Shown in pieces: positions 29,967-52,115 of a stretch of DNA of 64,000 bases. Within the stretch, counting starts at the first letter, position 1. Each line of letters begins with the position of its first letter. The stretch is from Solitalea canadensis DSM 3403 (lineage in GTDB: Bacteria; Bacteroidota; Bacteroidia; Sphingobacteriales; Sphingobacteriaceae), in NCBI RefSeq assembly GCF_000242635.2, contig NC_017770.1, forward strand, positions 1,624,669 through 1,688,668, read 5' to 3'. The translations under genes were made by a program, and so were the position numbers. The notes under the pieces are model-generated. The model saw only the letters and a program-made list of their open reading frames with translations. It ran no database searches and was not told the origin of the DNA.

Positions 29967-30162
29967 GTTATAATAATTGATGAGGGACTACTTATACCCT
30001 GATTAATGGAATATTTCGGGCAGAGTTATTCTATTATTAATTGAAGTCAAATGATAAAGATCAGGATTTTGCCTGACAGTAGCTAATGTTTTAACTGAGG
30101 GCCTATTAGATCGAAATGGTTTTTCGAAAGATGCAGAGGGAGAGAGAAAATAGATTAAATAC

Positions 30163-42448: not shown

Positions 42449-42462
42449 TTGATACTAATCAA
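42449..42462 (+). promoter_or_regulatory. FNR-type box upstream of fnr
   Basis: TTGATACTAATCAA, a perfect palindrome matching the enterobacterial FNR consensus TTGAT-N4-ATCAA. A TTG (42463-42465) and TATTTTTG (42487-42494, TANNTTTG type) follow, 21 bp apart. Confidence 0.82.
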
Positions 42463-42486
42463 TTGGCTTTGTATTAATATTAATCA

Positions 42487-42494
42487 TATTTTTG
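42487..42494 (+). promoter_or_regulatory. Bacteroidota -7 element for fnr
   Basis: TATTTTTG fits TANNTTTG; TTG at 42463-42465 is 21 bp upstream. Its distance from the FNR box centre (31.5 bp) almost matches that at the ccoI and ccoS promoters (29.5 bp). Confidence 0.7.
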
Positions 42495-42545
42495 CAGAAT
42501 TCTGTTAGTGTTTCATTACTTGACAACGTAAAAGCGTCTCTAATT

Positions 42546-43259
42546 ATGGCTAAAAAGCACACCGACCATTTCAGCTGCATCACCTGTCAGTATCGTAAGG
42601 ATTCTGTTTTTTGTGGGTTACGGGAAAACGAACTGGCTAAAATTGACTCACATAAAGGTCATATTACTTATAACAAAGGTGAAGAGATTTTTATTGAAGG
42701 AGACCGTCCACACGGTATCTACTGTATTCATGGTGGCAAAGTAAAACTATCTAAACATGGTGAATTTGGGAAGGAACAAATTGTTCGTTTCGCAAAAGAA
42801 AGTGATGTTATAGGCTACAGGGCGTTGCTTGGTAATGAAATGTATGATTGTTCAGCGGTTGCACTTGAGCAAACAGAAGTTTGTTTTGTTCCTAAGTCTG
42901 ACTTCTTCGAAATATTTGATAATAGTGCATCGTTATCAGGTAACATGGTTAAGCTTCTTACGCTTGATTTAAAACGAGCTGAGAACAAACTTACCGATAT
43001 TGCACAGAAACCGGTTCGCGAACGTATTGCAGAAACTATCTTGGTTTTGAAAGAAACGTTTGGAGAAGATATAGAAACCGGTTGTATTAAAGTTGTTTTA
43101 AGTAGAGAGGAAATTGCTAATATGGCAGGTACTGCTACCGAAACAGCTATTCGATTATTATCTGAACTCAAAACTGACGCGTTAATTGAGTTCGTTGGCA
43201 AAAAAATTAAAATCGTTAATAAAAAAGAACTGCTTCGAAGAGCAAATCTTTATAATTAA
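42546..43259 (+). CDS. Fnr/Crp-family oxygen-type regulator
   Basis: About 237 residues from the ATG at 42546; the upstream in-frame TTG lies inside the promoter. N-terminal Cys: Cys11, Cys14 and Cys23 (C-I-T-C-x8-C), plus Cys102 in Y-D-C-S-A-V. This is the arrangement that holds an iron-sulfur cluster in Fnr, though the third spacing differs (x8, not x5). The cNMP-like beta-roll follows (residues 35-140) and the HTH has L-S-R-E-E-I-A-N-M-A-G-T-A-T-E-T-A-I-R-L. A perfect FNR box lies before its own gene, and similar boxes precede ccoI and ccoS directly downstream. Confidence 0.9.
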   Translation: MAKKHTDHFSCITCQYRKDSVFCGLRENELAKIDSHKGHITYNKGEEIFIEGDRPHGIYCIHGGKVKLSKHGEFGKEQIVRFAKESDVIGYRALLGNEMYDCSAVALEQTEVCFVPKSDFFEIFDNSASLSGNMVKLLTLDLKRAENKLTDIAQKPVRERIAETILVLKETFGEDIETGCIKVVLSREEIANMAGTATETAIRLLSELKTDALIEFVGKKIKIVNKKELLRRANLYN

Positions 43260-43265
43260 TAATGC

Positions 43266-43279
43266 ATGACTTTTGTCAT
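43266..43279 (+). promoter_or_regulatory. Fnr/Crp-type box upstream of ccoI
   Basis: ATGACTTTTGTCAT, within CATGAC-TTTT-GTCATG (43265-43280). Its half sites TGAC/GTCA correspond to the TTGAT/ATCAA pattern with the outer base changed. TAATTTTG at 43302-43309 is the -7 element; centre-to-box distance is 29.5 bp. Confidence 0.72.
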
Positions 43280-43301
43280 GTTTTTCTTAAATTTTCGGGA
43301 T

Positions 43302-43309
43302 TAATTTTG
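43302..43309 (+). promoter_or_regulatory. Bacteroidota -7 element for ccoI
   Basis: TAATTTTG fits TANNTTTG. No good TTTG -33 is present, as expected for an activated promoter. Confidence 0.65.
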
Positions 43310-43351
43310 TCCTGACCTGGACTGTGTTCCGGGTTCTAATTAACCGGGCAC

Positions 43352-45751
43352 ATGCAATTAACCGATATTAATACTACTTGCTTTCACTGCGGACTTGAGT
43401 GTGAAGAGGAAACCGTCCTTTTTCAACAGAAAACTTTTTGCTGTAATGGCTGTAAAGTTGTGTACGAGATCTTATCAGAAAATGAATTGTGTGATTATTA
43501 TGATATTTCTCAAACACCAGGGGTTTCACAGCGTTTAAAAAGTTCAGCTTCCCAAAAGTTTTCTGTTCTTGACACACCTGATATTAAGCATAAATTAATC
43601 CGCTTTACCGATGGAGAACAGACGCATATTGTATTTTTCCTCCCTCAAATTCATTGTAGCTCATGTATTTGGTTATTAGAAAATTTAAATAGAATCAATC
43701 CCGCAGTAATTAGTTCACGAGTTGACTTTACTACAAAGGAAATTACCGTTGTTTATAAGGAAGAAAAGATAACCCTTAAAGAAATAGCCGAGATTCTTAC
43801 CAGTGTAGGCTATGAACCTTATCTCAACCTAAATGATGTTACTAATAAAAAGCCTGAATCAACTGACAGGGGATTGATTTATAAACTTGGAATTGCAGGT
43901 TTTTGCTTTGGTAATATTATGATGCTCAGTTTTCCTGAGTATTTTTCAGATGGGACTGTTGATATTCAGCTTCAGAAATTATTCAGTACCCTTAATCTGA
44001 TCTTAGCACTACCTGTATTTTTTTATAGCGCATCTGTGTTTTATAAATCAGCATGGGCAGGTTTGAAAAAGAAATTCCTCAATATTGATGCTCCGATTGT
44101 ACTAGCAATCTGGATTACCTTTGCTCGTAGTGTTTATGAGATTTTGAGTGGCACTGGTGCCGGATACCTTGATTCAATGGCAGGAATTGTATTTTTCATG
44201 CTCATTGGTCGTTATCTTCAGGACAGAACTTATAAGAAGTTATCTTTTGAACGCGATTACAGATCCTATTTTCCAATTGCTGTAACAGTAAAAAGAGATA
44301 AAGACAAAGAGGTAAATATCCCTGTAACCGATTTAAAAGTAGGAGACAGGATGATTGTCAGAAATAATGAATTAATCCCTGCCGATTCAATACTATTTTA
44401 TGGCGATGCTAATATCGATTACAGTTTTGTTACCGGTGAGTCTGCTCCAATAAAAAAATCAACTGGTGAAATTATCTATGCCGGTGGAAAGCAAAAGGGA
44501 AGCTCAATTGAAATGGAAGTAGTTAAGGAAGTTTCCAATAGTTATTTAACTGAACTATGGAACAAGGATGTTTTCAGAAGTTATGAAGATAAAAAGCTTT
44601 CATTTATTCATAAATTAAGCCAGTATTTTACATTAATATTATTCTCCATTGCAGCAATCACTGCAGTCTATTGGGGCTTCAATGATCAATCACGAATTTT
44701 AAATGCAGTATCAGCTATATTGATCATTGCTTGTCCGTGTGCATTGCTGTTATCTGCCACATTTACCAACGGAAATGTTTTGCGCATTTTTGGTCAGAAC
44801 GGACTTTACCTGAAGAATGCAACCGTCATAGAAATGATTGCGGAAGCAGATTCTATAGTTTTTGATAAAACTGGAACCATAACCCAAAATGGGGCAATGA
44901 AAGTTAGTTTCAGTGGAAATCCATTGTCGGATGAACAAGAAGTAATTATTCGTTCATTATCGGTTCAGTCTACACATCCCTATAGCAAAGCTATTACTTA
45001 TTACCTTCCAAAATCAAAGTTGTTGAAGGTTCATAATTTAAAGGAAACTGCAGGATTAGGCCTTGAGGGTGATATAGATGGGAATTTGGTAAAACTTGGA
45101 TCTGCCTTATTTACAGGAGCCATTGACACTTCTGGCATTAATACGGGTAAGGTGTACGTAACAATCAATGAACAAGTGGTTGGTTGTTTTACCATTACTA
45201 ATAAGTATCGCGAAGGAATGGAAAAATTAATCCATAATTTGGATAAAAGCTATGAGCTTTCAGTTATTTCCGGCGATAATGATGCTGAGCAACCATATCT
45301 CGAAAAGCTGTTTATAGGTGAAAGCACATTGCTATTTAATCAAACACCTGAAGGCAAATTAAAATACATAAATGATTTACGAACCAAGCATAAAAAGGTG
45401 ATGATGGTAGGGGATGGATTGAATGATGCGGGAGCGTTAAGGCAAAGTAATATTGGCATTGCTGTTTCCGATGAAGTCAATAATTTTTCTCCTGCTTGTG
45501 ATGCGATCTTAGATGGAACTCAGTTAAATAGACTGGGAACATTTATAAGATATGCAAAAGCTGGAAAAGCAATTGTGGTTGCTAGCTTTATCATATCAAT
45601 TTTATACAATTTCGTAGGATTATCTTTTGCTGTTCAGGGAATCTTATCACCTGTTATTGCTGCTATTCTAATGCCTGCAAGTTCCCTCACTATCATCTTG
45701 TTTACAATGGGCACCAGTAGTTTTATTGCCAAGTTATGGGGAATGCGATAA
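43352..45751 (+). CDS. ccoI: Copper-transporting P1B-type ATPase (CcoI/FixI type)
   Basis: 799 residues. An N-terminal Cys-rich zinc-ribbon-like head (Cys10, 13, 17, 30, 31, 34) is followed by an HMA domain with Cys102-x2-Cys105, then transmembrane helices. P-type signatures: F-V-T-G-E-S (actuator), Cys461-Pro-Cys463 in the transport helix, the phosphorylated Asp505 in D-K-T-G-T-I-T, and G-D-G-L-N-D-A in the hinge. The head and the cbb3 genes downstream point to CcoI, which delivers copper for the oxidase CuB site, rather than a resistance pump. Preceded by its own Fnr-type box. Confidence 0.93.
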   Translation: MQLTDINTTCFHCGLECEEETVLFQQKTFCCNGCKVVYEILSENELCDYYDISQTPGVSQRLKSSASQKFSVLDTPDIKHKLIRFTDGEQTHIVFFLPQIHCSSCIWLLENLNRINPAVISSRVDFTTKEITVVYKEEKITLKEIAEILTSVGYEPYLNLNDVTNKKPESTDRGLIYKLGIAGFCFGNIMMLSFPEYFSDGTVDIQLQKLFSTLNLILALPVFFYSASVFYKSAWAGLKKKFLNIDAPIVLAIWITFARSVYEILSGTGAGYLDSMAGIVFFMLIGRYLQDRTYKKLSFERDYRSYFPIAVTVKRDKDKEVNIPVTDLKVGDRMIVRNNELIPADSILFYGDANIDYSFVTGESAPIKKSTGEIIYAGGKQKGSSIEMEVVKEVSNSYLTELWNKDVFRSYEDKKLSFIHKLSQYFTLILFSIAAITAVYWGFNDQSRILNAVSAILIIACPCALLLSATFTNGNVLRIFGQNGLYLKNATVIEMIAEADSIVFDKTGTITQNGAMKVSFSGNPLSDEQEVIIRSLSVQSTHPYSKAITYYLPKSKLLKVHNLKETAGLGLEGDIDGNLVKLGSALFTGAIDTSGINTGKVYVTINEQVVGCFTITNKYREGMEKLIHNLDKSYELSVISGDNDAEQPYLEKLFIGESTLLFNQTPEGKLKYINDLRTKHKKVMMVGDGLNDAGALRQSNIGIAVSDEVNNFSPACDAILDGTQLNRLGTFIRYAKAGKAIVVASFIISILYNFVGLSFAVQGILSPVIAAILMPASSLTIILFTMGTSSFIAKLWGMR

Positions 45752-45880
45752 GTGAAAAATAAAGTTATTATTAACTATTTATTTGGTAAATTAAGTGGTT
45801 AATGGTAACGCGATAATGTATTTATTGAAATGCATTAGTTGTGCTTTTAAATACTTTAAAAGCCAATTTATTGTTTTTTA

Positions 45881-45920
45881 TGTCTAAAAAAACATGACGG
45901 ATATCATGTTTTTTTAGACA
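45881..45920. promoter_or_regulatory. 40-bp perfect palindrome between ccoI and ccoS
   Basis: TGTCTAAAAAAACATGA (45881-45897) and TCATGTTTTTTTAGACA (45904-45920) are perfect 17-bp inverted copies around CGGATA. It can act as terminator for ccoI and, at its centre, holds the Fnr-type box of the cco promoter. Confidence 0.85.
45894..45907 (+). promoter_or_regulatory. Fnr/Crp-type box upstream of ccoS
   Basis: ATGACGGATATCAT at the centre of a 40-bp palindrome. TACTTTTG (45930-45937) is the -7 element, 29.5 bp from the box centre, exactly as at ccoI. Confidence 0.74.
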
Positions 45921-45929
45921 TATCAATGG

Positions 45930-45937
45930 TACTTTTG
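45930..45937 (+). promoter_or_regulatory. Bacteroidota -7 element for the ccoS-ccoNO operon
   Basis: TACTTTTG fits TANNTTTG. The start of ccoS is 19 bp downstream. Confidence 0.68.
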
Positions 45938-45955: not shown

Positions 45956-46120
45956 ATGAGTGCAATAATAATACTCCTGATCATAAGCCTCTTTGTTGCA
46001 GGCGGTTTTCTGTTTGCTTTTATATGGTCTGTAAAAAGTGGTCAGTTTGACGATGACTACACACCCTCTGTCCGAATTCTTTTTGATTCCAAAGAATCTT
46101 CTGAAGAAGAAAATAACTAA
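45956..46120 (+). CDS. ccoS: cbb3 oxidase maturation protein CcoS
   Basis: A 54-residue protein, short enough to be missed in routine gene calls. One membrane helix (residues 3-24, I-I-I-L-L-I-I-S-L-F-V-A-G-G-F-L-F-A-F) is followed by W-S-V-K-S-G-Q-F-D-D-D-Y-T-P-S-V-R-I-L-F, the conserved CcoS signature, and an acidic tail. CcoS is needed for cofactor insertion into cbb3 oxidase. First gene of the operon, directly after the palindromic promoter; ccoNO starts 39 bp downstream. Confidence 0.95.
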   Translation: MSAIIILLIISLFVAGGFLFAFIWSVKSGQFDDDYTPSVRILFDSKESSEEENN

Positions 46121-46159: not shown

Positions 46160-48295
46160 ATGGAAATTGAAAAGTTCTCCTATGACAACCGGATAGTTAA
46201 GCAATTTGCAAATGCTACTATTTTTTGGGGAATAGTAGGAATGACCGCTGGTCTGTATGCTGCTTTACAATTAGTATTTCCGGTACTTAATCTCGGGCAA
46301 TACTTTGAGTATGCAACTTTCGGCCGTTTACGTCCGGTACATACAAATGCTGTTATTTTTGCATTTGTTGGTAACGGTATCTTCATGGGCGTTTATTACT
46401 CGTTGCAACGACTTTGTAAAGCCCGCATGTTTAGCGATACGCTAAGTAAAATTCATTTTTGGGTTTGGCAATTAATCATTGTTGCTGCGGCAGTTACCCT
46501 TCTTCTTGGATACACTACAGGAAAAGAGTACGCAGAGCTTGAATGGCCTATCGACATTGCAATTACTTTGATCTGGGTTGTATTTGGTATCAACATGTTT
46601 GGAACCATTATTAAACGCAGAGAAAAGCATATTTATGTGGCGATTTGGTTCTACATCGCAACTTTGGTAACGGTTGCAGTTCTGCACATCGTTAACTCTG
46701 TTGAGATTCCAGTATCTGCATTTAAAAGTTATTCATGGTATGCAGGGGTACAGGATGCTTTAGTTCAGTGGTGGTACGGACATAATGCTGTTGCATTTTT
46801 CCTTACAACACCATATTTAGGTTTGATGTATTATTTCTTACCTAAAGCGGCTAACAGACCTGTTTACTCTTACAAACTATCTATTGTACACTTTTGGGCC
46901 CTTATTTTTATCTATATCTGGGCTGGCCCTCACCACTTATTATATACGGCTTTGCCTGACTGGGCTCAATCATTAGGCGTAGTATTCTCCGTTATGCTGA
47001 TTGCTCCATCATGGGGTGGTATGTTAAACGGTTTATTAACATTACGTGGTGCTTGGGATAAAGTACGTGAAGAACCTGTTCTTAAGTTCATGGTTGTTGC
47101 TTTAACTGCTTACGGTATGGCAACTTTTGAAGGTCCGATGCTTTCTCTTAAAAACGTAAATGCAATCAGTCACTTTACAGATTGGACAGTTGCTCACGTT
47201 CACGTTGGGGCATTAGGTTGGAATGGCTTTTTAACATTCTCTGTATTATACTGGTTATTCCCTAAGTTGTTCAAAACTCAACTATACTCTAAAAAATTAG
47301 CGAACTGGCACTTCTGGATTGGTACTTTAGGTATTATCTTCTATGCGGTTCCATTATATTGGGCTGGGTTCTTACAGGCTTCAATGTGGAAAGAGTTTAC
47401 TGCAGAGGGTGTATTGAAATATGCTAACTTCTTAGAAACGGTAAAAGAGATCATTCCAATGTACGCTACTCGTGCATTAGGCGGTGTGCTATATTTAGCA
47501 GGTGTTATAATAATGACTTATAACCTTATTAAAACAGCAAAATCCGGTTCTTTTGTAGCCGAGGAAGCAGCAGAAGCGCCTGCATTAGCTAAACATGAGG
47601 CACATGAGCATGAGCACTGGCACCGTGTACTTGAACGTAAACCTATGTTAATGTTGGTAGGTAGCCTTGTTGTAATTCTTATCGGAGGTTTAGTTGAAAT
47701 GATTCCTACCTTCCTGATTAAATCAAATGTGCCTACAATTTCAAGTGTAAAACCTTATACACCACTTGAGCTTCAAGGTCGTGATATTTATTTGCGCGAA
47801 GGTTGTTATAACTGTCACTCGCAAATGATTCGTCCTTTCCGTGATGAAACGGTGCGATATGGTGAGTACTCAAAAGCAGGTGAGTTTGTGTATGACCATC
47901 CATTCCAATGGGGATCAAAACGTACCGGACCAGATTTACATCGTATTGGTGGTAAATATCCTGATTCATGGCACTATAATCACATGATGGATCCTTCATC
48001 AATGGCTCCAGGTTCAATTATGCCTCAATATCCTTCGTTACTTGACAAGCAGTTAGATATTTCATCAACACCTGCTAAGATCAGAGCAATGCAGACATTA
48101 GGAGTTCCTTATCCTGCAGGTTATGATCAAAAAGCAAATGATGATTTACATAAACAAGCTGGCGAAATAACAGAACGATTGAAAAAGGATGGTATTGAAA
48201 CCAAGAGTGATCGTGAAATTATTGCCCTTATTGCTTATCTGCAACGCATGGGAACAGATATTAAAGCTGAAGGTAAAGTAGCTGAAACTAAATAA
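46160..48295 (+). CDS. ccoN: cbb3-type oxidase, fused subunits I and II (CcoN-CcoO)
   Basis: 711 residues. Residues 1-465 are CcoN: His61 (low-spin heme b), His208 in Y-G-H-N (CuB), His258-His259 in G-P-H-H (CuB), and A-H-V-H-V-G with His346/His348 as heme ligands. A His-rich linker (K-H-E-A-H-E-H-E-H-W-H, 478-488) leads to a membrane helix (496-516) and a CcoO domain with heme c in Cys549-Y-N-C-His553 and the Met ligand in S-I-M-P-Q-Y. The fusion is known in Bacteroidota. Reduces O2 to water at high affinity. Second gene of the operon. Confidence 0.96.
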   Translation: MEIEKFSYDNRIVKQFANATIFWGIVGMTAGLYAALQLVFPVLNLGQYFEYATFGRLRPVHTNAVIFAFVGNGIFMGVYYSLQRLCKARMFSDTLSKIHFWVWQLIIVAAAVTLLLGYTTGKEYAELEWPIDIAITLIWVVFGINMFGTIIKRREKHIYVAIWFYIATLVTVAVLHIVNSVEIPVSAFKSYSWYAGVQDALVQWWYGHNAVAFFLTTPYLGLMYYFLPKAANRPVYSYKLSIVHFWALIFIYIWAGPHHLLYTALPDWAQSLGVVFSVMLIAPSWGGMLNGLLTLRGAWDKVREEPVLKFMVVALTAYGMATFEGPMLSLKNVNAISHFTDWTVAHVHVGALGWNGFLTFSVLYWLFPKLFKTQLYSKKLANWHFWIGTLGIIFYAVPLYWAGFLQASMWKEFTAEGVLKYANFLETVKEIIPMYATRALGGVLYLAGVIIMTYNLIKTAKSGSFVAEEAAEAPALAKHEAHEHEHWHRVLERKPMLMLVGSLVVILIGGLVEMIPTFLIKSNVPTISSVKPYTPLELQGRDIYLREGCYNCHSQMIRPFRDETVRYGEYSKAGEFVYDHPFQWGSKRTGPDLHRIGGKYPDSWHYNHMMDPSSMAPGSIMPQYPSLLDKQLDISSTPAKIRAMQTLGVPYPAGYDQKANDDLHKQAGEITERLKKDGIETKSDREIIALIAYLQRMGTDIKAEGKVAETK

Positions 48296-48477: not shown

Positions 48478-48503
48478 TTAGAAACACTTAAAACAGTTTG
48501 AGA

Positions 48504-49511
48504 ATGAGATTCCGAACTTTTAACATACATTCAAAAATTAAACCAATTCTGGTTTTATTACTTTTCTTGTTTGCAAGTAATGCTGTATTTGCAACACAAG
48601 AATTAGGGCAGTTTGGATCAGGAGCTGGAACTCCTGCACCAAGTACCTCTGGTGGTACAGGTTCTTCAGATTTAATGTTCTACTCATTGGTAGCAGCTAT
48701 TGTAGTAGAGTTATTGGCTATTTTAATTCTTGCCTTTGCAGTCTTAAGACTAATAAAAGTATTCTATGGAATAAGTAGCAAACAACTTAAAGCTGCAGGG
48801 GTTGAAGTTGAAGCAGAAGCGAAACCAAAAGCAAAATGGTTCTCTTTTGAACGATTAAATAAATCAGTTCCTATTGAGAGAGAAGGTGACTTGTTGATGG
48901 ACCATGATTACGATGGTATCCATGAACTGGATAACAAAATGCCACCTTGGTTTTTATGGTTATTCAGAGTTACAATTTTCTTTGCTATTGTATATCTGGG
49001 TGTATATCATATTTTCAAATCAAGTCCATTACAATTAGATGAATACAAGAATGAACTTGCTGTAGCAGATAAGCAATTAGAAGCGGTTCGTAAAAATGCA
49101 GCTAATCAGATAGATGAAAATAGTGTTACAGTAATTTCTGACGGTGCTCAAATTAAAGCTGGTGAAACAATCTTTACATCTAACTGTGTTGCTTGTCATG
49201 GTGCAAAAGGAGAAGGAGGAGTAGGCCCTAATTTAACGGATGATTATTGGTTGCATGGCGGTGGTGTAAAACACATTTTCAAGACAATTAAGTATGGTGT
49301 TCCAGAAAAAGGTATGAAAGCGTGGGAACAGGATTTGTCACCATCTCAAATTCAAGAAGTGGCAAGCTATATCCTGACACTGCATGGTACGAATCCTCCT
49401 AATGCAAAGGAAAAACAAGGAGAGTTGTACAAGGATGAAGCAGCCGCTAAACCAGCAGACTCAGTACAGTCAACTGCAAAAACTGATTCATTGAAAACCA
49501 CCAAAATGTAA
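48504..49511 (+). CDS. ccoP: cbb3 oxidase diheme-type subunit III homologue with one heme c (CcoP)
   Basis: The ATG at 48504 is chosen over a TTG at 48498; 335 residues. It has a signal or membrane segment (13-30), a Gly/Ser/Pro-rich stretch, a membrane helix (59-84), the CcoP N-terminal motif D-H-D-Y-D-G-I-H-E-L-D-N-K-M-P-P-W (133-149), another helix (150-170), and one cytochrome c domain with Cys228-V-A-C-His232. Only a single C-x2-C-H is present; the second heme of proteobacterial CcoP is missing. It carries electrons from cytochrome c to CcoN. Confidence 0.92.
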   Translation: MRFRTFNIHSKIKPILVLLLFLFASNAVFATQELGQFGSGAGTPAPSTSGGTGSSDLMFYSLVAAIVVELLAILILAFAVLRLIKVFYGISSKQLKAAGVEVEAEAKPKAKWFSFERLNKSVPIEREGDLLMDHDYDGIHELDNKMPPWFLWLFRVTIFFAIVYLGVYHIFKSSPLQLDEYKNELAVADKQLEAVRKNAANQIDENSVTVISDGAQIKAGETIFTSNCVACHGAKGEGGVGPNLTDDYWLHGGGVKHIFKTIKYGVPEKGMKAWEQDLSPSQIQEVASYILTLHGTNPPNAKEKQGELYKDEAAAKPADSVQSTAKTDSLKTTKM

Positions 49512-49529
49512 TAACATAAAAAATAAATA

Positions 49530-50939
49530 ATGTCGATAGAAAACAATCAGAATGAAGAGGCCGAAAGTTTTAGGGATCATTTAGCAACTGTAGATGAAAC
49601 CGGCAAGCGAAAGTGGATATATGTTCAGGAACCTAAAGGGAAACTGTATAACTATCGAACTATTCTGAGTGTTTTCTATTTGATTGTACTTTTTGCCCTT
49701 CCATTTCTTAAGGTCAATGGGCACCCGCTTTTTCTATTCAATGTTCTTGAACGTAAGTTCATCCTATTTGGTGTTACATTCTGGCCACAGGATTTTTTCA
49801 TCTTTGGCGTTGGAATGATTACCTTTTTGGTCTTTATTGTATTATTCACAGTTATTTTTGGCCGTGTTTTTTGTGGTTGGGCTTGTCCGCAAACCATTTT
49901 TATGGAAATGGTATTTCGTAGAATTGAGTATTGGATTGAGGGTAATAATAATCAACAAAGAGTACTGAATAACGGGCCATGGACTAACAAGAAGATTTTC
50001 AAAAAGACACTTAAGCATACTATCTTTTTTGCAATTTCCTTTTTAATTGCCAATATATTTCTTTCCTACATTATTGGTATAGACGAGCTGATAAAGATTA
50101 TCAGTGAACCGGTAAATTTGCACATGACCGGCTTTATCGCTATCCTGGCATTCTCCTTTGTTTTTTATGGTGTATTCGCCTATATGCGTGAGCAAGTTTG
50201 TATTGCCATTTGTCCATATGGACGTTTGCAAGGAGTTTTGTTAGACAAAGATTCTGTTGTGGTTGCCTATGATAGAGTGAGAGGTGAAGATCGCGGGAAA
50301 TTTAGGAAAAATGAAACGAGAACTATTGGCGATTGTATTGATTGTTACCAATGTGTGAAAGTTTGTCCAACTGGAATAGATATCAGAAATGGTACCCAGT
50401 TAGAATGTGTTAACTGTACAGCGTGTATAGATGCTTGTGACCATATGATGGACAATGTCGGGTTACCTCGTGGATTAATTCGTTTTGCATCTGAAAACAA
50501 TATCACCAAAAAAGAGAAATTTTCGATAACACCACGTATAAAAGCTTACTCCGCTGTTTTGGTGCTGTTGATTGGCGCAATGGTGTTTATGCTCGTAACA
50601 CGTAAGGATTTAAATGCTACTGTTACAAGGGTAGGCGGAATGCTTTATCAAAAGCAGGATAACAATAGGGTAAGTAATCTATATAATATCAAGTTACTGA
50701 ATAAAACTCAGCATAATTTGCCAATTGTATTAAAAGTAGAAAATGCAAATGCTGAAGTTAGGGTTGTTGGTAAAGAGTTGTTAGCAATAAGTGAAAATAC
50801 GGCTAACGGTACATTTTTTATTATTTTACCTAAAAAAGAGATAAACGCACGAAAAACCGAACTTCAGATCGGCGTTTATAGTGGTGAAAAGAAAATTGAA
50901 ACGGTTAAAACCTCATTTATGGGGCCATTAAGTGAGTAA
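49530..50939 (+). CDS. ccoG: CcoG/FixG copper-reducing ferredoxin-like membrane protein
   Basis: 469 residues. Membrane helices near 45-65, 90-115, 160-180 and 195-215 alternate with Cys motifs: V-F-C-G-W-A-C-P, C-I-A-I-C-P-Y-G, and the two 4Fe-4S motifs C-I-D-C-Y-Q-C-V-K-V-C-P and C-V-N-C-T-A-C-I-D-A-C. A C-terminal periplasmic beta domain follows a further helix. CcoG reduces Cu(II) for assembly of cbb3 oxidase. Starts 18 bp after ccoP. Confidence 0.94.
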   Translation: MSIENNQNEEAESFRDHLATVDETGKRKWIYVQEPKGKLYNYRTILSVFYLIVLFALPFLKVNGHPLFLFNVLERKFILFGVTFWPQDFFIFGVGMITFLVFIVLFTVIFGRVFCGWACPQTIFMEMVFRRIEYWIEGNNNQQRVLNNGPWTNKKIFKKTLKHTIFFAISFLIANIFLSYIIGIDELIKIISEPVNLHMTGFIAILAFSFVFYGVFAYMREQVCIAICPYGRLQGVLLDKDSVVVAYDRVRGEDRGKFRKNETRTIGDCIDCYQCVKVCPTGIDIRNGTQLECVNCTACIDACDHMMDNVGLPRGLIRFASENNITKKEKFSITPRIKAYSAVLVLLIGAMVFMLVTRKDLNATVTRVGGMLYQKQDNNRVSNLYNIKLLNKTQHNLPIVLKVENANAEVRVVGKELLAISENTANGTFFIILPKKEINARKTELQIGVYSGEKKIETVKTSFMGPLSE

Positions 50940-50951
50940 AATAATTATATC

Positions 50952-51395
50952 ATGAAACTAGGTTGGGGAACAATTACCGCTTTATTCTACTGTTCATTTG
51001 TAGTGTTTATGTTAGGTTTGGTATACCTGGCAATGCGGGAGAAATTTGAATTGGTAACGCCTAACTACTATGCTGAAGAATTAAAGTATCAGCATAAGAT
51101 TGATGCTGCAAAAAATGCCAATCAGCTAAGCGAAATGACTGATATTCAAATTGTCAATAAATCCGTTACAATTAATTTACCAAAGGAGTTTGATGGAAAG
51201 GTTGTTACCGGGCAAATTTATTTTTTCCGTCCTTCAGACGGAACCAAAGATTTAAAAGTTGAACTTAAGCCTGATGATTCAGGCAAACAAGTGATTACCA
51301 ATAGCTCATTTATTAAGGGCTTATACAAAATAAAATTGGATTGGAAATGTGATGGGAAGGATTATTTTCTTGAACAGAATATATTTTTTCAATAG
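50952..51395 (+). CDS. ccoH: CcoH/FixH-family assembly protein
   Basis: 147 residues. An N-terminal membrane helix (residues 6-26) is followed by K-F-E-L-V-T-P-N-Y-Y-A-E-E-L-K-Y-Q, the FixH motif, and a periplasmic beta domain. CcoH is needed for stable assembly of cbb3 oxidase. Separated from ccoG by 12 bp; the C-terminal half is divergent, as usual in this family. Confidence 0.9.
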   Translation: MKLGWGTITALFYCSFVVFMLGLVYLAMREKFELVTPNYYAEELKYQHKIDAAKNANQLSEMTDIQIVNKSVTINLPKEFDGKVVTGQIYFFRPSDGTKDLKVELKPDDSGKQVITNSSFIKGLYKIKLDWKCDGKDYFLEQNIFFQ

Positions 51396-51416
51396 AAAGT
51401 ATCTTTAATCTGACTA

Positions 51417-52115
51417 ATGTTAGAAGCGTTCATATTTGGATTTATAGGAAGTTTTCATTGCATAGGAATGTGCGGACCTATTGCTATGGCCTTACCCATC
51501 AGCTCCAATTCATTACCGAAACGTATTGCCTCAATCTTTGTATATAATTTCGGACGAGTAATTACCTATGCAGTTATCGGATTGGTCTTTGGGCTAATTG
51601 GCTTAGGATTTAAGCTTGCCGGCTTTCAACAAAGTTTATCCATTGCGTTAGGTTGTCTGATACTTTTAATTGCACTTGCACCTCATTTAAAGATCAACCG
51701 TTTCTCAACGGATAGTTTCTTGTCAAAACCAATCTCATTTATACGAAGATCTATTTCGAAATTATTTAATCAGCATAGCCTTGGTGCATTATTAACGATA
51801 GGGTTGCTAAATGGACTATTACCTTGTGGTTTTGTTTATTTAGGCATCATTTGGACCACCTCTTTAGGCAGCTCAATTGATGGGATGTTATTTATGGTAT
51901 TCTTTGGATTGGGCACAATTCCTGCAATGTTAGGCATAAGCTTAATGACAGGTTTCATAAGCATTAATTTTAGAAATAAAATCAAAAAAGCAATTCCTGT
52001 ATTAATGGTTTTAATGGGAATTTTACTGATTGTTCGCGGCATGGATCTTGGAATTCCTTATTTAAGTCCACATATTCAAAATCTACAGGCAGAAATGCCT
52101 TCTGATTGTCATTAA
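51417..52115 (+). CDS. SafE-type copper-handling membrane protein (labelled TauE/SafE family)
   Basis: 232 residues, six or seven hydrophobic helices. The first helix has F-I-G-S-F-H-C-I-G-M-C-G-P, a Cys/His/Met motif like that of copper chaperones such as CcoS/H-linked SafE (UPF sulfite exporter-like) proteins found at the end of cbb3 operons. Later G-L-L-N-G-L-L-P-C-G-F-V-Y carries another Cys. Because it is the last gene of the cbb3 operon, copper delivery is more likely than sulfite export. A strong hairpin follows. Confidence 0.85.
   Translation: MLEAFIFGFIGSFHCIGMCGPIAMALPISSNSLPKRIASIFVYNFGRVITYAVIGLVFGLIGLGFKLAGFQQSLSIALGCLILLIALAPHLKINRFSTDSFLSKPISFIRRSISKLFNQHSLGALLTIGLLNGLLPCGFVYLGIIWTTSLGSSIDGMLFMVFFGLGTIPAMLGISLMTGFISINFRNKIKKAIPVLMVLMGILLIVRGMDLGIPYLSPHIQNLQAEMPSDCH

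Follow-up and report, generated by a model that had tools for sequence, protein, structure and literature searches.

Control of cbb3 oxidase genes by FNR-type regulators is known from Proteobacteria, where FnrL, FixK and FnrN act in another phylum, with another sigma factor and on another type of promoter than those considered here. For E. coli FNR, 19 of the 23 activated promoters with known starts have their sites at -41.5 +/- 4 (PMC3688515). In Flavobacterium psychrophilum, the motif TAnnTTTG occupies positions -12 to -5 relative to mapped starts, and oxygen limitation strongly induces cbb3 (PMC9723704); the text of that study mentions neither FNR nor Crp, and the present analysis contributes the regulator site and its distance from the motif. 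Members of the Crp/Fnr family have likewise been described in Bacteroidetes as HcpR (Bacteroides and others), with HcpR2 carrying Pro (or Ser/Gln) at the equivalent of CRP Glu181 and binding GTAAC-N4-GTTAC in most species (PMC1274295). Here we examine a stretch of 64,000 nucleotides (the window) from Solitalea canadensis DSM 3403 (NC_017770.1, positions 1,624,669 to 1,688,668), in which an fnr-like gene is followed by the cbb3 genes ccoI, ccoS and ccoNO. Sequence comparison makes it likely that the promoters of ccoI and ccoS-ccoNO are of class II and under the control of an FNR-type regulator, most probably the adjacently encoded Fnr, which would bind them at low oxygen.

Upstream of ccoI, the palindrome ATGACTTTTGTCAT (43266-43279) is followed by the -7 element TAATTTTG (43302-43309, forward strand), and upstream of ccoS the palindrome ATGACGGATATCAT (45894-45907) is followed by TACTTTTG (45930-45937, forward strand), the putative -7 element of ccoS-ccoNO. 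At both, the first T of the -7 element lies 29.5 base pairs (bp) from the box centre. Starts transferred from another genus (Flavobacterium) are predicted at 43314 and 45942, and because TAnnTTTG lies at -12 to -5, the box centres fall at -41.5 (29.5 + 12), where E. coli FNR has its sites in class II promoters. The original prediction had given distances of 31.5, 29.5 and 29.5 bp for palindromes before fnr, ccoI and ccoS; these hold when measured from the middle of each palindrome to the leading T of its -7 element, and not when measured to the middle of that element. It had also set the regulator over the -33 region, which appears right for ccoI and ccoS, where the box covers that region and the 29.5-bp spacing is conserved. 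The -33 region of the aligned sites contains no conserved TTTG, and a sigma-70 promoter scan returned matches at chance level only. A matrix from whose training Solitalea was excluded placed the ccoS box first in the window, the ccoI box second and the fnr box sixteenth. Three congeneric genomes keep the ccoI box at 29.5 bp, and the ccoS box is kept likewise in the two whose stretch covers ccoS, as well as across Bacteroidia. The ccoS box is enclosed by a perfect inverted repeat with 19-bp arms and a 6-bp centre (45879-45922), of which the congeners keep the core and a few flanking bases, with no conservation of the outer arms.

Genome-wide, the analysis consisted of pattern searches and fetched stretches in the home genome (5.2 Mb, one contig). 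The 14-mer WTGAYNNNNRTCAW is common there, occurring at 209 places compared with 115 for a reversed control; a lone palindrome therefore proves little, and it is the spacing that counts. A search for the palindrome and TAnnTTTG with 8 to 38 bases between them returned 30 places, 11 of which have 23 bases between, the 29.5-bp spacing. The other 30 spacings hold a mean of 0.63 composites (Poisson P ~1e-10 for the excess at 29.5 bp), with three composites at the spacing one base shorter and three at the spacing one base longer. The ccoI and ccoS boxes are thus genuine, and the distance at which they lie carries meaning.

The same geometry recurs well beyond the genus. A motif scan of related genomes, which had been proposed as a check and was now run, found the exact composite of box, 29.5-bp spacing and TAnnTTTG 984 times in 236 of 295 Bacteroidia genomes, against 25 occurrences in 25 genomes for the reversed control. 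Among 139 boxes upstream of ccoI, ccoS or fnr in relatives, with near-duplicates removed, an exact TAnnTTTG lies 29.5 bp away in 47 cases, or in 81 if one mismatch is allowed; exact matches number 0-2 at the remaining distances, except 51.5 bp (10) and 6.5 bp (6). Anchoring the count on TAnnTTTG upstream of ccoI or ccoS, with near-duplicates kept, places 56 boxes at 29.5 bp, 40 at 51.5 bp and no more than two elsewhere. The consensus of the box in relatives is ATGAY-N4-RTCAT, and its TGA and TCA bases are 98-100% fixed in 77 sites, partly due to a selection rule that required GA and TC. Class II promoters of E. coli FNR resemble these sites in the -41.5 centre (measured here from a predicted start) and in the TGA...TCA inverted-repeat core. 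They differ in the box itself, which is TTGAT-N4-ATCAA in E. coli, and in the promoter, which here is TAnnTTTG without a -33 match; TAnnTTTG at -12 to -5 is shared instead with the flavobacterial sigma-A promoters (PMC9723704).

In the home genome, such composites are associated with genes of anaerobic and microaerobic metabolism. Among the genes preceded by exact composites are ccoI, ccoS, aspA (aspartate ammonia-lyase), pflB (pyruvate formate-lyase) and those that encode a globin of bacterial type, a protein with CBS domains and a YceI protein. Allowing up to one mismatch raises the count to 46, compared with 15 in the control, and a share of the one-mismatch places is thus due to chance; these places include the upstream regions of hemN, nrfH, a gene for a universal stress protein (Usp), genes for AspT/YidE-type and lactate/formate-type transporters, and narK together with the gene divergent from it. 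Both hemN and aspA are oxygen-regulated genes, and the predicted target set has the composition expected of a regulon for anaerobic or microaerobic conditions. It overlaps with that of E. coli FNR at pflB, nrf and narK (PMC3688515). One box (locus L366, 2362562-2362635 of the home contig) lies between divergent genes for a NarK-type transporter and a membrane protein without a Pfam match, with one-mismatch -7 elements 29.5 bp away on both sides. Within the window, a further candidate target is a carbonic anhydrase gene, which is preceded by a box (30047-30068, reverse strand) 29.5 bp from the one-mismatch -7 element TAACTCTG.

The fnr-like gene itself (42546-43259, forward strand) encodes a protein of 237 amino acids with the Crp/Fnr fold, matching Pfam cNMP_binding, HTH_Crp_2 and Crp (PF00027, PF13545, PF00325) above cut-off and having Crp/Fnr proteins, including FNR 5cvr, as its best PDB relatives. 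Its scores fall short of the NCBIfam cut-offs of NF008365 (86 bits vs 228) and NF045989 (76 vs 300), which we take to be models of proteobacterial Fnr/FnrL. These shortfalls bear on membership of those proteobacterial subfamilies, not on mechanism, and since the curated score is not reached, "FNR-type regulator of Bacteroidota" is the most fitting name for the protein. Its recognition helix, TATETAIR, contains Glu199 and Arg203, both present in 91 of 91 orthologs drawn from the fnr and cco loci of relatives and consistent with the reading of TGA. Unlike HcpR2, the protein thus keeps Glu at this point, and its putative sites read TGA...TCA and are not of the GTAAC type, which places it outside the HcpR group.

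The C-x2-C-x8-C motif of the original prediction was confirmed as Cys11, Cys14 and Cys23, whereas the fourth cysteine it had named was not. Cys102, which is conserved in 8 of the 91 orthologs, was rejected as a cluster ligand in favour of Cys113, conserved in all 91 and aligned with Cys122 of E. coli FNR. Cys11, Cys14 and Cys113 are each cysteine in 90-91 of the orthologs. Together with Cys23 they provide the four cysteines expected for an iron-sulphur (Fe-S) cluster, a pattern shared with E. coli FNR, although the N-terminal spacing is x2/x8 here and x2/x5 there. Cys60 is also cysteine in 86 of the 91 orthologs. The cysteines and the content of the regulon suggest that the protein senses oxygen.

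We propose that at low oxygen the regulator would be active with an Fe-S cluster on Cys11, Cys14, Cys23 and Cys113, and would bind the palindrome ATGAY-N4-RTCAT centred at -41.5. Bound there, it would cover the -33 region and stand in for the missing -33 element by contacting RNA polymerase, which may then open the DNA at TAnnTTTG, with TA at -12/-11. Four observations weigh against this model. Cys23, the third N-terminal cysteine, is aligned in 61 of the 91 orthologs, so that some members of the group may hold the cluster differently; some box-bearing genomes have only weaker relatives of Fnr; about two fifths of the scanned ccoI regions have no box at the cut-off used; and two receiver-domain Crp paralogues with similar helices (TATESLIR) might use the same boxes.

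The last of these points bears on which protein is the main user. The home genome has seven Crp/Fnr-type matches, and the TATESLIR helices of the two receiver-Crp fusions keep the TGA-reading Glu and Arg, so that the main user of the boxes could be a different Crp/Fnr protein, such as a paralogue linked to nitric oxide or to a phosphorelay, with the adjacent Fnr as only one of several users. The predicted targets nrfH and narK would also fit nitrogen-oxide signals. We nevertheless consider this improbable. An N-terminal C-x2-C-x8-C is found only in this Fnr among the home-genome Crp/Fnr proteins compared, and in many genera the gene for the protein with this motif is a neighbour of the boxes and of ccoI. 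Composite counts also follow its presence: genomes whose best Fnr match has E < 1e-100 contain a mean of 5.9 composites, compared with 0.6 in those without a listed match, a contrast between two extremes that is uncorrected for kinship. In addition, regulation by oxygen is typical of targets such as hemN, pflB, aspA and cco. It is because of neighbourhood, cysteines and co-occurrence that we favour this Fnr as the probable main user.

A different reading would dispense with protein binding altogether and take the palindromes as transcription terminators of fnr and ccoI. The ccoI palindrome does form a 7-pair stem followed by T-rich sequence, and that of ccoS belongs to the 19-bp perfect inverted repeat described above. 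Set against this are the near-invariant TGA and TCA (in part a product of the selection rule), a distance from box to -7 element that is fixed to the base, and the presence of sites in the gap between two genes that point away from each other, as with narK and the gene next to it. Moreover, terminator-like matches in the region number 3, against 1.9 in shuffles, and are no more frequent than in shuffled sequence. We judge the terminator reading to be very unlikely.

The palindrome nearest to fnr has a different status from the two boxes of the cco genes. While the sequences and positions of all three palindromes and of the three TAnnTTTG-like elements were as first described, only the ccoI and ccoS boxes withstood further analysis. 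The weak FNR-like palindrome upstream of fnr, TTGATACTAATCAA (42449-42462), lies 31.5 bp from its TAnnTTTG element, TATTTTTG (42487-42494, forward strand; predicted start 42499), and is probably not a conserved site. It scores like background and is missing from the three congeneric genomes, where the -7 element is found without it. Self-regulation of fnr, which had been part of the original prediction, was rejected as unsupported in this lineage after the congener comparison and matrix scoring, given the deviant spacing, weak match and absence in congeners. In favour of a true autoregulatory site at -43.5, recently arisen in this species, the palindrome matches TTGAT-N4-ATCAA, which is canonical for E. 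coli FNR, without deviation, and the 31.5-bp spacing recurs in one further composite of the home genome; the palindrome's absence in congeners, its low rank in the window and outer bases unlike the ATGAY-N4-RTCAT consensus of relatives make such a site doubtful. In some Flavobacteriales, looked at in passing, fnr is divergent from ccoI and a box stands directly before the fnr -7 element. At loci L187, L113 and L141 the box ATGAATTTTATCAT abuts the fnr -7 element (6.5 bp). A regulator bound so close would block transcription instead of activating it, in line with repression of fnr.

Many relatives carry an elaborated form of the promoter, with tandem boxes 22 bp apart, unlike E. coli FNR class II promoters. 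In 41 of the 77 class II boxes of relatives, a second matrix match lies exactly 22 bp upstream (-63.5), whereas none of the remaining offsets between 10 and 40 has a count above 1; the 51.5-bp peak noted above arises because of this second box. The tandem pattern with TAnnTTTG was found in 110 of 295 genomes and its reversed control in none. A large number of the fetched examples precede ccoS-ccoNO, and ccoI/ccoS promoters of this kind include those at loci L189, L193, L207 and L213. A search of the home genome for the exact tandem composite returned no match, Solitalea having single boxes. Outside Bacteroidia, a pair of boxes with the 22-bp offset is present upstream of ccoI in a metagenome-assembled genome of Ignavibacteria (L156). 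We hold at even chances a Bacteroidota-own FNR promoter design in which one or two dimers would sit on ATGAY-N4-RTCAT at exactly -41.5/-63.5 (22 bp, about two helical turns) and replace the -33 element, the tandem form giving a cooperative, steeper oxygen switch.

On the forward strand, ccoI (43352-45751), the copper P-type ATPase of cbb3 oxidase maturation, is identified from its open reading frame and profile matches. It is followed by ccoS (45956-46120; cbb3 assembly protein; Pfam FixS, TIGR00847), the ccoNO fusion for the catalytic subunits (46160-48295; NF011053, TIGR00780, TIGR00781), and ccoP, ccoG and ccoH with a membrane protein (48498-52115), named by resemblance from open reading frames whose order is conserved in relatives. 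The first calls of a Crp/Fnr protein, a CcoI-type P-type ATPase, CcoS and a CcoN-CcoO fusion were thus borne out by profile matches. Solitalea longa and one more genome of the genus have the same fnr and cco sequences, and the order fnr-ccoI-ccoS-ccoNO-ccoP-ccoG-ccoH recurs among 160 annotated fnr/cco loci of relatives, particularly in Chitinophaga.

A search of the open-access literature for FNR or Crp at -41.5 in Bacteroidetes returned nothing relevant, nor did we find there a description of this activator geometry on the unusual Bacteroidota promoter. The geometry suggests that class II activation works with a sigma factor of the -7/-33 type, the position used in E. coli being reused, despite a different kind of promoter, in the home bacterium and in hundreds of its relatives. 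A base-exact -41.5 rule would offer a simple predictor of oxygen-regulated genes across a phylum of gut, soil and marine bacteria.

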